In this document: positions 1 to 46,577 of the stretch, piece after piece | Position numbering within the stretch: position 1 is the stretch's first letter | How the letters are laid out: every line of letters starts with the position of its first letter | Source of the DNA: Mycolicibacterium gilvum | GTDB taxonomy: Bacteria; Actinomycetota; Actinomycetes; Mycobacteriales; Mycobacteriaceae | Assembly: GCF_900454025.1 (NCBI RefSeq) | Contig: NZ_UGQM01000001.1 | Coordinates: forward strand, 5,146,001-5,210,000 | Direction: 5' to 3' | DNA: 64,000 bases | Notes under the pieces: model-generated | Databases searched by the model: none | What the model saw: only the letters and a program-made list of their open reading frames with translations | Told to the model about the DNA's origin: nothing | Made by a program: the position numbers and the translations under genes

Positions 1-2
1 GG

Positions 3-380
3 TTGATGCGTGCCATCGAGCCCGGCGGTCTGGTCGACCAACTCCTCGCCGAGGACGGTCTGGTCGATCGGCTGCTCGCCGAGGACGGCGTCGCGGACCG
101 GCTGTTCGCCGAAGGCGGGGTCGTCGACACGCTGACCGCGCGCAACGGCCCGCTCGAGCAGCTCGCGGCCGTCGCGGACACGCTGAACCGACTCGCTCCG
201 GGCCTGGAAGCCCTCGAGCCGACCATCGAAGCGCTGCGCGACGCGGTGATCGTGCTGAGCCAGGTGGTCAACCCGTTGAGCAACATCGCCGATCGCATCC
301 CGCTGCCCGGGCGCCGGATCCGTAACCGCCCGACGACCCGCCCGGTGCCCACGCAGCGGATCATCGAATCCGAGGAGTGA
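3..380 (+). CDS. C-terminal part of a conserved mycobacterial hypothetical protein
   Basis: This reading frame runs in from the left edge, so the true start is probably outside the window, although an ATG lies at position 6. The visible 125 residues begin with short tandem repeats built on L-L-A-E-D-G (LVDQLLAEDG, LVDRLLAEDG, VADRLFAEGG). A helical segment and a basic tail ending in PLPGRR and threonine/arginine-rich sequence follow. I recognise the layout as a conserved mycobacterial protein family without an assigned reaction. No catalytic motif, signal peptide or membrane segment is visible. It stops 6 bp before the convergent HNH gene. Confidence 0.6.
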   Translation: MMRAIEPGGLVDQLLAEDGLVDRLLAEDGVADRLFAEGGVVDTLTARNGPLEQLAAVADTLNRLAPGLEALEPTIEALRDAVIVLSQVVNPLSNIADRIPLPGRRIRNRPTTRPVPTQRIIESEE

Positions 381-386
381 CTCTCT

Positions 387-821
387 TCAGTACGATTGGC
401 CGTCGGCATAGCGTTGCCGGCGGTTGTAGCGACCCTTCCCCCAGTTTTTAGCTTTGTATGTCGGCAGCTGACTATCGCAGTTCGGACAGATCAGTCGCAG
501 ATTCTCGCGACGGTCGTTTTTCGGGTCCCCGTCGATGTGGTCGATGACCAGACCTAACGTCAGTCCGTTCCACAAGTTCTTCAGACCACAAATGGCGCAG
601 CAACCGCCTTGTTGGTCGTTCAGGTAGACGCGGACGTAATGCCGCTGATGCGACATCCCTCCACGGCAGACGCCTGTCTCAAGCCAGGCTCCCAACAGCA
701 GGCGGCGCTGATACGCCTGCTGACATGCGTTGCCGCAGAACACTTTCTGCTGACGCTTCTGAAGTTCGGCCCCACAACCGCGACACGCCCTTGCCACGCT
801 CCCGACGCTAGCCCTGAGCAC
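387..821 (-). CDS. HNH endonuclease with N-terminal Cys4 zinc ribbon (copy A)
   Basis: The protein is about 144 residues. It has an N-terminal zinc-ribbon pattern (CRGCG, then two more cysteines in FCGNAC) followed by an HNH nuclease core: CAIC, then VIDHIDGDP, then [14 protein letters not shown] followed by N and H-like residues with paired CxxC motifs is the standard HNH layout. I chose the GTG at 821 because GGGA lies 7 nt upstream. Longer readings would run antisense through the tRNA-Thr gene and produce a spurious peptide. A paralog sits on the other side of the tRNA, transcribed the opposite way. The role is unknown; a mobile or homing-like nuclease is an inference. Confidence 0.8.
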   Translation of the reverse strand: MLRASVGSVARACRGCGAELQKRQQKVFCGNACQQAYQRRLLLGAWLETGVCRGGMSHQRHYVRVYLNDQQGGCCAICGLKNLWNGLTLGLVIDHIDGDPKNDRRENLRLICPNCDSQLPTYKAKNWGKGRYNRRQRYADGQSY

Positions 822-874
822 CGACACATCCCGGGTGAGCCAGGCGATAGAATTCGGGGCGTCCTCACGGACAC

Positions 875-949
875 GCCTCCTTAGCTCAGTGGTAGAGCGT
901 TCGCCTTGTAAGCGGAATGTCATCGGTTCAATCCCGATAGGAGGCTCCA
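875..949 (+). tRNA. tRNA-Thr (anticodon TGT)
   Basis: A full cloverleaf can be drawn. The acceptor arm GCCTCCT pairs with AGGAGGC, the anticodon stem TTCGC pairs with GCGGA, and the T-loop TTCAATC is present. The anticodon TGT lies at 907-909 and reads ACA threonine codons. A T discriminator at 946 is followed by an encoded CCA at 947-949. HNH nuclease genes lie on both sides and point away from it. Confidence 0.95.
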
Positions 950-997
950 CCTTCCGGCGAGAGCCGGTTGTCGGCTGTTGACCGTAGCGTCTCCAGC

Positions 998-1402
998 GTG
1001 AGTCAGTGTCGCGGTTGCGGTCGCCCACTCCTGAAGCGCAGCCAGAAGATCTACTGCAGCACGTCGTGCCAGGCGGCGGTCCGCCGCGACGCTGCCGTCA
1101 AGCGATGGCTGGAATCGGGGGACGCGTGGGTCGACACCCGAAGCGGACACTACATTCGCCAGTATCTGTCCGCGGCCCAAGCGGGACGTTGCGCGATCTG
1201 CGAGGGCGACGGCGTGTGGCTCAACCTTCCGCTGACTTTCGTCGTCGATCACATCGACGGCAACCCGTCGAACAATCGGCGGGAAAATCTCAGGCTCATC
1301 TGCCCCAATTGCGACTCGCAGCTCTCGACGTACAAGGGCCGCAACCGCGGCAGCGGCCGACACTCCCGCCGTCAGCGGTACGCCGACGGCCAGTCCTTCT
1401 GA
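998..1402 (+). CDS. HNH endonuclease with N-terminal Cys4 zinc ribbon (copy B)
   Basis: The protein is about 134 residues and is a clear paralog of copy A across the tRNA. It has the same CRGCG zinc ribbon with CSTSC, the same CAIC / VVDHIDGNP / [16 protein letters not shown] core, and nearly the same C-terminus ([10 protein letters not shown]). I chose the GTG at 998 because it puts the first cysteine at residue 4. An upstream TTG at 968 would add about ten residues. The gene starts only 48 bp after the tRNA, so it may depend on the tRNA promoter or on sequences just after it. The nuclease target is unknown. Confidence 0.82.
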
Positions 1403-1494
1403 GCCCACGGCACTCGCTGCAGTTTCAACCTTCCCCGATCGCGGCAATACTCGATACCGGTCGATACGAAACCAACCTTGCGAAGGCGGAACTC

Positions 1495-3741
<2,247 letters not shown>

Positions 3742-4133
3742 TCTCCGACCCCTTCGCGGGACAGGACCGCAAAGCGCGAGAGGCGCGGGGGTGACGTTCG
3801 CGCGGGCCATCTGACCGACGGCGGTCAGGTTCGCCGACGCGCAGGCACGCCAGGTGTTGTACCGACCTCCCGCACCGACCGGCGCGGGGCAGGTCGTCGA
3901 CGTTGCCGCAGGGAACCAGACCGGCGAAAGGGCACCTCAACACCGGTCCGTCATGAGTCATCCGCATTTGCTGCGTCAGCATCCGGAGAGCGTTGTGACG
4001 CTGATTCCTCATGGTCACAGTAACGAAACGAAACCCGTGACGATTTAACCTTTTGCTCGCCGCCTTCCCGCCGATGCGATTGAATGGTCCACGACGACGG
4101 GGCGGTCATAGGTTGAATCGAAGGGAATCCAAG
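3742..4133. other. Intergenic region between the GH13 and DUF4185 genes
   Basis: About 390 bp carry no convincing gene. The region holds one clear hairpin (3811-3828) close to the GH13 stop, and near 4014-4044 an A-rich tract with repeated AACGAAA-like units that could be a promoter or regulator site for the secreted protein downstream. I could not assign a named operator. Confidence 0.45.
3811..3828 (+). terminator. Hairpin after the GH13 gene
   Basis: CTGACCG and CGGTCAG form a perfect 7-bp stem around a 4-nt loop, about 70 bp after the stop codon. There is no T-run, which is common for mycobacterial terminators. The function is inferred from position only. Confidence 0.4.
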
Positions 4134-6251
4134 GTGGCGGCATCGTATGTCGGTCGGGTCGGTGCGCTGGCCGTTGCGCTCGGCGTCGGATCGGCGGTAT
4201 TTGCAGGACAGGGCATGGCCTGGGCTGATGACGGTGCGTCGTCAGCCTCGAAACCCTCGGCATCAGCAACCTCGGGCGGCAACACCGCCGACACCCAGAG
4301 CACTACCACGAAGCCGGACGACGCCACCCAGACCGACGACGACACCGCCGACGACACGGCCACCGACGACTCCGCCACTGACACCGAGGAACCCGACGCC
4401 GAGGACCCCGACGTCGAGGAACCCGATATCGACAGTCCGCAGGTCGACACCGACAGTCCCGACGACGAGGTCGACGGCCCCGACGACGAGCCCGAGCCCG
4501 CTGCCGAATCCGACGACAGGACGCCGGCCAAGCCGGCAGGAAGGGCGCCGCGCGACACCGAACCGGAGGCCGCACCCGAGGCCGAGGTCGAAACGGGTAC
4601 TCAGCAGAGCGCCCAGACCTCTGAGCGCGACCCGTCGGACACGACAGCGACCCCCCGCGACACCGAGGACACTTCGGCACCGCAGACCTCGACGACGGTC
4701 ACGGTGGACGCCACCGCGGCCAAGGCCACGACGGGCACGGCGTCATCGACGCTCGCCGATCTGTCCACCACCGAGCAGGGTCCGCAGACTTCCGACGCGA
4801 AGCCGAACCTGATCACCGCGGTGGTCAACGTCGTCAACAGCATGATCGACTGGGCCCGGCAGAAGGCCGCGGCCGACCCGGGCGATGCGCCGCAACCGCC
4901 GTTCCTGTGGGCGCTGATGGCGATCGCGCGCCGTGAGCTCGACACCTTGTTCGCCGCACGCACCTCCAACTCGCCGCGCAGCAGCACGGCCGCATCGACG
5001 AGCCTCGCGCTGGGCGACGCGGCCACCGCAGCAGCCACCGCAGCGGCCACGACACCGCAACCGTTCCGGTCCCCGTGGCTGAACCCGCAGGTCAGCGCGT
5101 CGACGAAGTTCATCAGCTGGGTCACCGGCGCGTTCTACGACGGTGATTACGCCCTGCTGGCCAACACGCTGAAACGCTTCAACGTGTACGGCACCGATGT
5201 GGGCGTGATGTGGGACAACGGCATGGTCGACGACCCGTCCACCCCCGACATCGACGAACGGCAGGTCCTCATCGCCGTAGGCGACACCTTCGGCGGGCCG
5301 GGTATGACCGGCCGCCACATCTACAACTCGCTGTTCCGCAGCTCCGACCGCGACCTCGCCGACGGCATGACCATCCCTGATGGGGAGTGGTTCAACGGCA
5401 ACATGTTCGGCGGCGCCCCGCTCGATAAACCCGATCAGTCCCGTCCGATCATCGAGCGCCCAGCATGGCTGCCCGGCTCGGTGACGCTGATCCCGACCGC
5501 CGGTGTGTCCCTGCCGACCGAGGTCAGCGAGGACACCCCGTTCGGCACCATCCAGTACGTCAGCTTCATGTCGGTGACGAGATGGGGGCAGTCCGGCCGC
5601 TGGAGCACGAACTACTCGGGAATCGCGTACTCCACCGACAACGGCGAGAACTTCACCGTGGCGCCGTCGAGCGTGCGGTACAACTCGTTCTTCAGCGGTA
5701 ACCGCAACTTCCAGCAGTCGGCGTTCGTCAAGGGCGACGACGGCTACGTGTACATGTACGGAACCCCCAACGGACGCCAGGGGGCGGCCTACCTCGCCCG
5801 CGTCGCGCCCGAGGACATCCTCAACGCCTCCAAGTACGAGTACTACAAGAAGGCGTCGTCGGGTTGGTTCGGCGGCAGCCCGGCCCGCTGGGTGGGCAGT
5901 CCGTCCTCGGCGTCGGCGATCATCGGCAAGTCCGGCGGCCTGTTCGGGTTCACCAAGCCCGGTTACACCGTGAGCGAAATGTCGGTGCAGTACAACGAAT
6001 ATCTGAAGAAGTACATCGTGTTGTACGGCGATCAGTCCAACAACATCGTCATGCGCACCTCGGACACCCCCGAAGGGGGTTGGTCGGATGCGACCGTACT
6101 GATGCGGCAGCAGACCGGCGGCATCTACGCGCCGATGCTGCACCCGTGGTCGCCGTCGACGGAGGGCACCGGCTCGACGCTGTACTGGAACCTGTCGCTG
6201 TGGTCGGAGTACAACATCATGCTGATGGAGACCGACCTGTCGAAGATCTGA
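4134..6251 (+). CDS. Secreted DUF4185 domain protein with long acidic linker
   Basis: The product is about 705 residues. It starts with a signal peptide (GRVGALAVALGVGSAVFAG, cleavage likely after AWA). Next comes a roughly 170-residue low-complexity stretch very rich in Asp, Glu, Thr and Pro, then a C-terminal DUF4185 domain of about 380 residues with WDNGMVDD, GDTFGG, SGIAYSTDNGENF and MYGTPNGR. DUF4185 is a beta-propeller-like domain also found at the end of some PE/PPE proteins; its enzymatic activity is not established. I chose the GTG at 4134 because AAGGGA lies 7 nt upstream. The TTG at 4113 would add Arg/Lys residues that also suit a signal peptide. An extracellular or cell-wall location is inferred. 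Confidence 0.8.
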   Translation: MAASYVGRVGALAVALGVGSAVFAGQGMAWADDGASSASKPSASATSGGNTADTQSTTTKPDDATQTDDDTADDTATDDSATDTEEPDAEDPDVEEPDIDSPQVDTDSPDDEVDGPDDEPEPAAESDDRTPAKPAGRAPRDTEPEAAPEAEVETGTQQSAQTSERDPSDTTATPRDTEDTSAPQTSTTVTVDATAAKATTGTASSTLADLSTTEQGPQTSDAKPNLITAVVNVVNSMIDWARQKAAADPGDAPQPPFLWALMAIARRELDTLFAARTSNSPRSSTAASTSLALGDAATAAATAAATTPQPFRSPWLNPQVSASTKFISWVTGAFYDGDYALLANTLKRFNVYGTDVGVMWDNGMVDDPSTPDIDERQVLIAVGDTFGGPGMTGRHIYNSLFRSSDRDLADGMTIPDGEWFNGNMFGGAPLDKPDQSRPIIERPAWLPGSVTLIPTAGVSLPTEVSEDTPFGTIQYVSFMSVTRWGQSGRWSTNYSGIAYSTDNGENFTVAPSSVRYNSFFSGNRNFQQSAFVKGDDGYVYMYGTPNGRQGAAYLARVAPEDILNASKYEYYKKASSGWFGGSPARWVGSPSSASAIIGKSGGLFGFTKPGYTVSEMSVQYNEYLKKYIVLYGDQSNNIVMRTSDTPEGGWSDATVLMRQQTGGIYAPMLHPWSPSTEGTGSTLYWNLSLWSEYNIMLMETDLSKI

Positions 6252-45545: not shown

Positions 45546-46577
45546 CTACACGAGGTCGGCGAGGTCGCGGATCTGCTCGGGGGATCGTGCGCCGACGACC
45601 ATCATCGTGACGCCGGCGGCTTCCCACGCCGTGATCTGCTCCTTGACGTACGCCAGATCGCCGACAATCGCCGAGTCGTCGACCAGCTCGTCGGGAATCA
45701 CCGTGGCCGCTTCGTCCTTGCGGTCACTGCGGAACAACCGGGTCACGTCGTCGACGACCTCGGCATAGCCCATCCGGCGATACACGTCGGCGTGGAAGTT
45801 GGTGTCTTCGGCGCCCATTCCGCCCATGTAGAGCGCCAGGTGCGGCTTCATCAGCTCCATGATCGCCGGCCGGTCGTCGGTGACGACGACCTGTGCCGTC
45901 GCGCAGATCTCGAACGTCTCCCGGGTACGACGCGCGCCGGGACGGGCGAATCCCTCGTCGAGCCACTCGTTGTACATGCCCGCGATGCGCGGCGAATAGA
46001 AGATCGGCAGCCACCCGTCGCAGATCTCGGCGGCCAGCGCGACGTTCTTGGGTCCCTCCGCGCCGAGCATCACCGGGATGTCCGAGCGCAGCGGGTGGGT
46101 GATCGGCTTGAGGTTCTTGCCCAGACCCGTGGTGCCCTCGCCGGTCAGCGGCAGCGGGTAGTGCGGCCCGTCGCTGTGGACCGGGGCCTCCCGCGCCCAG
46201 ACCTGCCGCAGGATGTCGACGTACTCCCGCGTGCGGGCCAACGGCTTCGGGAACTTCGCTCCGTACCAGCCCTCGACGACCTGCGGACCGGACACCCCGA
46301 GCCCGAGGATGTGCCGTCCTCCGGACAGGTGGTCGAGCGTCAGCGCGGCCATCGCGCACGCGGTCGGCGTGCGCGCCGACAGCTGGATCACCGAGGTGCC
46401 CAGGCGCATCCGGGTGGTCTCGCGCCCCCACCACGCCAGCGGGGTGTAGGCGTCCGAGCCCCACGCCTCGGCCGTGAAGACGGTGTCGAAGCCCGCCCCC
46501 TCGGCGGCTGCGACGAGCTCGGCGTGGTTCTCCGGTGGCTGAGCGCCCCAATATCCGAGCTGCAAACCCAACTTCAT
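45546..46577 (-). CDS. LLM-class F420-dependent oxidoreductase (Rv3520c-like)
   Basis: The 343-residue luciferase-like TIM barrel starts MKLGLQLGYWG and carries SARTPTACAMAALTLDHLSGGR, GLGVSGPQVVEGWYG and VMLGAEGPKNVALAAEICDGW. These are typical of F420-dependent dehydrogenases of mycobacteria. The ATG at 46577 has GGAAGG upstream. The KstR-type site at 46625 lies upstream. The substrate is unknown, but cholesterol-regulon membership suggests a steroid intermediate. Confidence 0.87.
   Translation of the reverse strand: MKLGLQLGYWGAQPPENHAELVAAAEGAGFDTVFTAEAWGSDAYTPLAWWGRETTRMRLGTSVIQLSARTPTACAMAALTLDHLSGGRHILGLGVSGPQVVEGWYGAKFPKPLARTREYVDILRQVWAREAPVHSDGPHYPLPLTGEGTTGLGKNLKPITHPLRSDIPVMLGAEGPKNVALAAEICDGWLPIFYSPRIAGMYNEWLDEGFARPGARRTRETFEICATAQVVVTDDRPAIMELMKPHLALYMGGMGAEDTNFHADVYRRMGYAEVVDDVTRLFRSDRKDEAATVIPDELVDDSAIVGDLAYVKEQITAWEAAGVTMMVVGARSPEQIRDLADLV

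Follow-up and report, generated by a model that had tools for sequence, protein, structure and literature searches.

A putative homing-type cassette of an HNH endonuclease gene and a recoded tRNA-Thr(UGU) gene in Mycolicibacterium

In Mycolicibacterium gilvum two HNH nuclease genes lie on either side of a tRNA-Thr gene and are transcribed away from it. The first-pass annotation of this DNA saw here an inverted gene pair that might be a homing-like element, which raises the question of what the mobile unit is and what it does to the tRNA. The window, i.e. the whole stretch of 64,000 nucleotides that was analysed, carries the following features at this locus:

3-380, plus strand: UP, a conserved upstream reading frame, the locus anchor in relatives and the host marker
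387-797, minus strand: HNH-L, L-type nuclease gene, 136 aa, GTG start at 797
805..826, minus strand: PafBC/RecA-NDp-like promoter motif of HNH-L, strict form, start codon 7 nt beyond
875-949, plus strand: tRNA-Thr(TGT), a recoded allele (ARAGORN; Rfam RF00005, 69 bits)
899..917, plus strand: anticodon arm of this tRNA (nt 25-43), the most variable stretch in carriers
969..990, plus strand: PafBC/RecA-NDp-like promoter motif of HNH-R, loose form only, start codon 7 nt beyond
998-1402, plus strand: HNH-R, R-type nuclease gene, 134 aa, GTG start at 998
1495-3741, plus strand: TreS-like gene (TIGR02455, 881 bits)

The outward arrangement of the two nuclease genes around the tRNA was confirmed at 387..1402. 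HNH-L and HNH-R are indeed paralogs (54% identity over 150 columns, E 4e-54), and their alignment bears out the common Cys4 ribbon, the HNH core beginning with DHIDG and the nearly identical C-terminus. The equal-looking distances to the tRNA did not hold up: the gaps measure 77 bp on the HNH-L side and 48 bp on the HNH-R side because the starts were corrected to GTG 797 and GTG 998, which were chosen by the conserved promoter motif and its spacing to the start codon. Both proteins score above the HNH_3 (PF13392) cut-off of 24.8 bits (28.4 bits for HNH-L and 34.0 bits for HNH-R, on frames longer than the corrected genes). A Pfam or NCBIfam match at E 0.01 was not found for UP. ARAGORN, run on the candidate tRNA places, found one tRNA-Thr gene each for CGT, GGT and TGT in the genome, and no tRNA gene at a weak candidate place (L415) of the same genome. 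The source genome also holds another pair of HNH domains, convergent and separated by about 1.0 kb (G000:C1:4097814-4097936, plus strand, and 4098963-4099085, minus strand; L004 and L001); no tRNA was found in the stretches around them.

Some HNH match was found in 96 of 198 same-genus genomes, and the locus was tabulated in 167 of the 198. A full-length HNH gene, defined by at least 115 aligned residues and in some cases with in-frame stops or frameshifts (e.g. G144), was present at 80 of these loci; 13 had fragments only and 74 had none, including G071, which was counted as HNH-free with a short HNH fragment present. Outside these counts are 12 further partial HNH matches, at other places or in genomes beyond the 167. 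All 80 loci with a full-length HNH contained tRNA-Thr(TGT), and in 75 of them the HNH gene was located 3' of it on the same strand; in G020 the distance was 1.7 kb. A similar linkage was seen in named loci from genome contigs. In the best 80 of 167 candidates, tRNA-Thr(TGT) lay 5' of the HNH gene within 1.5 kb in 79, on the same strand in 77 and on the opposite strand in 2, and the 80th had the tRNA elsewhere in the stretch. The named loci with tRNA-Thr(TGT) include six Nocardia and two Nocardioides records. The 167 same-genus loci showed these layouts (signs denote strands; HL and HR, HNH-L and HNH-R), others being rarer:

UP+ tRNA+: empty, 63 loci
UP+ tRNA+ HR+: R-type, 46 loci
UP+ HL- tRNA-: L-type, 17 loci, with a different tRNA body that starts GCCGCG
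UP+ HR- tRNA-: inverted R, 6 loci
HL- tRNA+ HR+: window layout, 2 loci (G000 and G141)
HL- tRNA_L- HR+: G090

The window layout is therefore far from fixed, being found at 2 of 167 loci in a same-genus comparison that does contain signs of insertion. Most carriers have a single HNH gene; the unit is one HNH plus one tRNA, and the pair is a rare double. G000, G141 and G090 look like double insertions that have kept opposite tRNAs. The homing-like element proposed in the first-pass annotation thus stands insofar as it is tied to the tRNA, given its patchy presence, the 13 fragment-only loci, the insertions into tRNA genes and the horizontal spread of the L type described below, but the inverted pair is not the element. 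At L040, L016, L041, L058-L060 and L062, HNH-L or its fragment (detected by the HR query in L059) lies convergent with and 3' of a recoded tRNA on the plus strand; no clear trace of an L tRNA was found at these loci.

The state of the tRNA gene differed with the presence of the nuclease. Ordinary tRNA-Thr(TGT), defined as lying within 2 differences of one or the other of two common forms, was found at 60 of the 73 HNH-free loci with a readable tRNA, at 0 of 13 fragment-only loci and at 4 of 80 full-length-HNH loci. The remaining 76 carriers have more than 2 differences, and the window allele has 9 compared to the nearer common form. The other 13 HNH-free loci contain 6 inverted L tRNAs and 7 R-type variants with at least 3 differences (only 3 and 5 in two of these). 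When carrier and HNH-free loci were matched by host-marker distance, the carrier tRNA was more derived in 33 pairs, less derived in 2 and equal in 5. These pairs are not independent, and the independent version is provided by tree-based pairs: 18 independent pairs on supported branches gave ∼10.8 with the association, 0.0 against and 7.2 ties (median p 0.001), on a quickly built tree of the upstream region with 160 rows and many weak branches. The four carriers with an ordinary tRNA are G027, G144 (frame-shifted), G156 and G179, so recoding is not always needed.

In a smaller, hand-picked set of loci, variability peaked in the anticodon stem. Among 44 distinct 72-nt alleles, all five anticodon-stem pairs are kept in 34, the T and acceptor stems in all 44 and the anticodon loop CTTGTAA in 43. 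The changes in the anticodon stem of carriers are compensatory and mostly keep pairing. The same arms recur in many hosts, and 20 distinct anticodon arms occur in carriers compared to 7 in HNH-free genomes (72-nt alleles). With the window tRNA-Thr(TGT) as query, 138 of 198 genomes matched at E 1e-12, 15 of these with at least 95% identity. The control tRNA-Thr(GGT) gave a match in all 198 genomes; among 150 matches listed 102 were at 100% and 48 at 99%, and the best E value was 1e-28 or lower in 193 genomes and weaker in G032, G041, G127, G162 and G193. A less clean control was tRNA-Leu(TAA), with matches in 193 of 198 genomes: 149 were at 95-100% among the 150 matches listed, 44 same-genus genomes had weaker ones (to E 2.7e-9), and 5 more had none.

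Direct traces of insertion were found at L-type loci. Here, the resident ordinary tRNA-Thr gene is in pieces, the break falling in its anticodon arm, and its 5' part sits between UP and HL. Such 5' pieces comprise nt 1-39 (G051), 1-45 (G134), 1-26 (G065) and 1-24 (G046, G048, G131); they occur in 6 of 19 L-tRNA cassettes, in one orientation, and all score above the best of 20 shuffles. A 3' part of the tRNA is found beyond the L tRNA in G134, G051, G131 and G046, as well as in the HNH-free G060 and in G094, which has an HNH fragment. Comparison with element-free alleles that are otherwise collinear placed the insertion sites. G134 and G017 are 93.4% identical over 1448 bp up to tRNA nt 45, where a 690 bp insert is followed by nt 28-73. 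G051 breaks at nt 39 relative to G058; after a 648 bp insert, homology resumes from nt 27 through the end of the tRNA and beyond. G046 and G131 both break at nt 24 relative to G061 and resume at nt 34 and 28, respectively. The L cassette, an HNH gene with a different tRNA-Thr(UGU) gene, is inverted within the resident gene, and the inserts are mostly HNH plus tRNA. The overlap, near nt 28-39, could reflect duplication of the target, or it could be tRNA sequence that arrived with the cassette. For the L type, an integrase-type island at the tRNA 3' end was rejected on the grounds of insert size (648-690 bp), position in the anticodon arm and content.

R-type loci have a different boundary. In all 10 pairs compared, the similarity between HNH-free loci and loci with an R-type HNH gene or a fragment of it ends at the 3' end of the tRNA (-2 to +8 bp); in 9 of the 10 it does not return within the stretch compared. 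A 3' piece (about nt 50-75) follows HNH-R in 3 of 56 R-tRNA cassettes (G152, G144, G158); beyond these three scars, R-type loci are presumed to have arisen by insertion. In the window and in 12 other double or odd loci, the best scores for tRNA scars were at or barely above those of shuffles, and none was clear. The HNH-free G074 (L294) has a partial second tRNA-Thr (nt 23-72) shortly after a whole one, possibly a scar.

The L tRNA was found at 95-100% identity in 27 genomes and at 86% in G090. The 138 genomes with an R-type match include none of those with an L tRNA; therefore the resident gene is gone or in pieces. On the best locus tree the L tRNA requires at least 16 changes, often amid relatives with the ordinary gene. 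Synonymous divergence (dS) was below half of the host-marker dS in 15 of 210 HL pairs and in 0 of 378 HR pairs, which shows recent transfer for some L pairs and not for R; the reverse, a host dS below half of the HNH dS, was seen in 100 of 210 HL and 86 of 378 HR pairs. In a smaller, hand-picked set of 28 R carriers, HNH-R distance correlated with host-marker distance (r 0.43) and not with distance of the tRNA allele (r 0.07; r 0.04 given the host, p 0.31, partial Mantel test). Transfer of HNH-R together with its tRNA allele as a unit is thus unsupported. G101 (L319), which has an L tRNA and no HNH, and G086 (L334), which has the ordinary gene, have flanks of 96% and 93% identity with about 286 and 229 bp, respectively, differing between them, as expected from a local swap. 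As to the origin of the tRNA, a phage tRNA-Thr as direct donor was not found; the best whole-length phage matches for three query tRNAs were at 83-85%.

The nuclease genes have a promoter motif of their own. In the first batch of loci, with 61 HNH genes aligned at the N-terminus, TGTCRG-N10-TANNN(T/C) was located upstream of 60 and the strict form TGTCRGT-N9-TANNNT upstream of 44. The start codon follows 6-8 nt 3' of the motif in 54 of the 55 genes placed, and this spacing suggests that the HNH transcripts are leaderless. The consensus of RecA-independent damage promoters is given as tTGTCRgtg-8 nt-TannnT in the cited part of PMC5656591, and PafBC works via this type of motif according to the cited part of PMC6789036. 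The HNH promoter motif agrees with this consensus, for HNH-R of the window only loosely, and DNA-damage induction via PafBC is therefore a plausible prediction for these genes. Within the 64-kb window the strict motif occurs once, before HNH-L; the loose motif occurs at the HNH-L site, at the HNH-R site and at 45666 on the minus strand, away from the HNH genes.

The proteins appear to be maintained as functional nucleases. The ribbon and the HNH motif are whole in 51 of 52 proteins and the median dN/dS is 0.17 for HR (227 pairs) and 0.16 for HL (97 pairs), which shows selection for function. Library matches are to DNA endonucleases (PHROG HNH families, PADLOC 'HEase'), and the fold of a structure model with a mean pLDDT of 79 resembled the Cas9 HNH domain and PacI only weakly (E 0.014 and worse). 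Several marks of a free-standing homing endonuclease are seen here: its catalytic motif is conserved and evolves under purifying selection, its presence is sporadic, some copies have decayed, and it has spread horizontally (the last shown for the L type only). Such a protein would be expected to cut the element-free allele and to spare its own. A defence system was rejected, with 'HEase' the best PADLOC model and ZorE and PtuB matching more weakly. So was a group I intron homing endonuclease: the tRNA is contiguous, and RF00005 was the only Rfam family at gathering cut-offs in window positions 1-5000.

The family extends beyond the genus. A profile of 16 HNH proteins matched 53 of 301 family genomes. 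Twenty loci were scanned. The 7 close matches, 2 of them same-genus, are neighbours of tRNA-Thr(TGT); the 13 distant ones belong to three other actinobacterial genera and are neighbours of tRNA-Leu(TAG). These 13 (L353-L365) represent a distinct HNH subfamily marked by an IDTSHF stretch in the protein; its genes, in some cases in tandem, immediately precede tRNA-Leu(TAG), and the tRNA is unusually variable. No clear half-tRNA scar was found at the tRNA-Leu loci. In the genus g28, when the HNH search and the tRNA search are set side by side, all 18 genomes have the HNH gene with a tRNA-Leu(TAG) match just downstream; the adjoining tRNA-Leu has 78-100% identity to the query, and another tRNA-Leu is at 86% in all 18. 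In viral contigs, a tRNA was present in the stretch around 77 of 78 HNH relatives, within 50 bp in 39 and within 300 bp in 68, compared to 12% (50 bp) and 44% (300 bp) for random placement in the same viral loci. These phage relatives (L117-L194) sit in tRNA arrays, often beside tRNA-Ser(TGA), tRNA-Arg(TCT) or a SeC-type tRNA. Half-tRNA copies near phage HNH genes reached a score of at least 18 in 5 of 78 cases and in 0 with one shuffle each. One plasmid record, from Curtobacterium, has a relative 124 bp after tRNA-Thr(TGT) within a tRNA array.

Taken as a whole, these data are probably best explained by a homing endonuclease that disrupts a tRNA gene present in single copy and provides a substitute resistant to it. 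The linkage, the recoding, the L-type insertion into the tRNA gene, the replacement and the promoter motif can be read from the sequences themselves. The HNH gene and the tRNA-Thr(UGU) gene would form a small mobile cassette, in which the HNH protein acts as a free-standing homing-type endonuclease directed at the anticodon arm of the ordinary tRNA-Thr(UGU) gene, itself single-copy. The cassette would enter the resident gene at the break and thereby destroy it. The substitute tRNA-Thr(UGU), with a rewritten anticodon stem in the R type or a different body in the L type, should escape the enzyme. The host would then rely on the cassette tRNA, and later loss of the HNH gene would leave an altered or inverted tRNA, as in the HNH-free L-tRNA loci. 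Expression from a PafBC-like, probably damage-induced promoter, with a probably leaderless start, could time the nuclease with recombination repair. The window itself may represent one R cassette (tRNA and HNH-R) plus an L-type HNH that has lost its tRNA. The scheme is weakest with regard to the four carriers with an ordinary tRNA, the vertical pattern of the R type, and the scars, which are rare and absent in the window. The seven HNH-free genomes with R-type variants, the uncorrelated HNH-R and tRNA-allele distances and the pairs with a host dS below half of the HNH dS also count against it.

Other readings of the same data were considered. The nuclease could be a stress toxin that cuts the tRNA-Thr transcript, with the recoded tRNA as its immune partner. 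This is unlikely, even though the recoding lies in the tRNA body with stems mostly still paired and the promoter looks damage-induced: the resident gene of L-type loci is physically split at the anticodon arm, which needs a DNA event, and the library and weak fold matches are to DNA endonucleases. The divergence of all ten R-type pairs at the tRNA 3' end, nine without resumed homology, and the way HNH-R tracks host phylogeny would also fit an integration hot spot in the tRNA 3' region, where the HNH gene is a passenger and tRNA differences follow lineage. However, L-type insertions are found in the anticodon arm and not at the 3' end, these genomes show hardly any variation in tRNA-Thr(GGT), the association of tRNA and HNH holds in independent pairs, and tRNA-Leu(TAG) shows a comparable linkage to a different HNH subfamily. 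We regard this reading as less probable still.

The least probable of the three is that the nuclease cuts its neighbouring tRNA gene and faulty repair diversifies the anticodon stem, without any spread between genomes. It would account for the 20 different arms of carriers against 7 in HNH-free genomes and for the uncorrelated HNH and tRNA alleles of R carriers, but hardly for identical, mostly paired arms that recur across many hosts, nor for L cassettes that bring a nearly constant, different tRNA into many lineages, with horizontal spread seen in some HL pairs.

The nearest known mechanisms to the proposed break-and-replace cassette, as far as the cited passages go, are SegB (PMC2988022, PMC13096335) and tRNA introns (PMC3984707). 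SegB of phages T4 and T6 is described there as a free-standing GIY-YIG homing endonuclease in the phage tRNA region, linked to inheritance (T4) or amplification (T6) of that region. It resembles the HNH cassette in being a free-standing endonuclease gene that adjoins tRNA genes; it differs in belonging to another nuclease family and to a phage tRNA region instead of a single-copy host tRNA, and these passages describe no tRNA that takes over from a broken resident gene. In the tRNA introns of PMC3984707, as cited, an endonuclease-bearing element likewise invades the anticodon region of a tRNA gene, but function is rescued by splicing, whereas no intron was found here and a second complete tRNA gene replaces the broken one. 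HNH genes accompany horizontally acquired tRNA genes in mycobacterial and mycobacteriophage arrays, where a role in tRNA diversity was proposed (cited parts of PMC5966550 and PMC6582537); the former points to Pope et al. 2014 for the part of HNH genes in producing the tRNA diversity of cluster M phages. These arrays contain many tRNAs, and the cited parts describe no single tRNA-Thr cassette, HNH-linked recoding or split resident genes. A description of the HNH/tRNA-Thr cassette was not found among the literature matches listed, a search whose scope mostly excludes subscription journals.

Homing elements usually preserve the function of their target, by splicing or by an intergenic position. 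The HNH cassette is a minimal element that appears to destroy and replace a single-copy tRNA gene. Synthetic cleave-and-rescue drives are engineered to break an essential gene and to supply a recoded, uncuttable copy; the HNH cassette, in contrast, would be natural and bacterial, with L-type inserts of 648-690 bp. On balance we favour the view that it represents a natural break-and-replace drive of bacteria, in which a damage-induced HNH nuclease with specificity for a single-copy tRNA gene, at its anticodon arm, would be mobile together with a recoded tRNA, sister subfamilies would act on other tRNAs (tRNA-Leu(UAG) in other actinobacterial genera and several in phage arrays), and turnover would be forced upon otherwise frozen host tRNAs. 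If true, host survival would be bound to the element, which would be a natural counterpart to engineered rescue drives and would explain why one threonine tRNA is variable and another nearly constant in the same genomes. The origin of odd actinobacterial tRNA alleles thereby becomes testable in laboratory strains.
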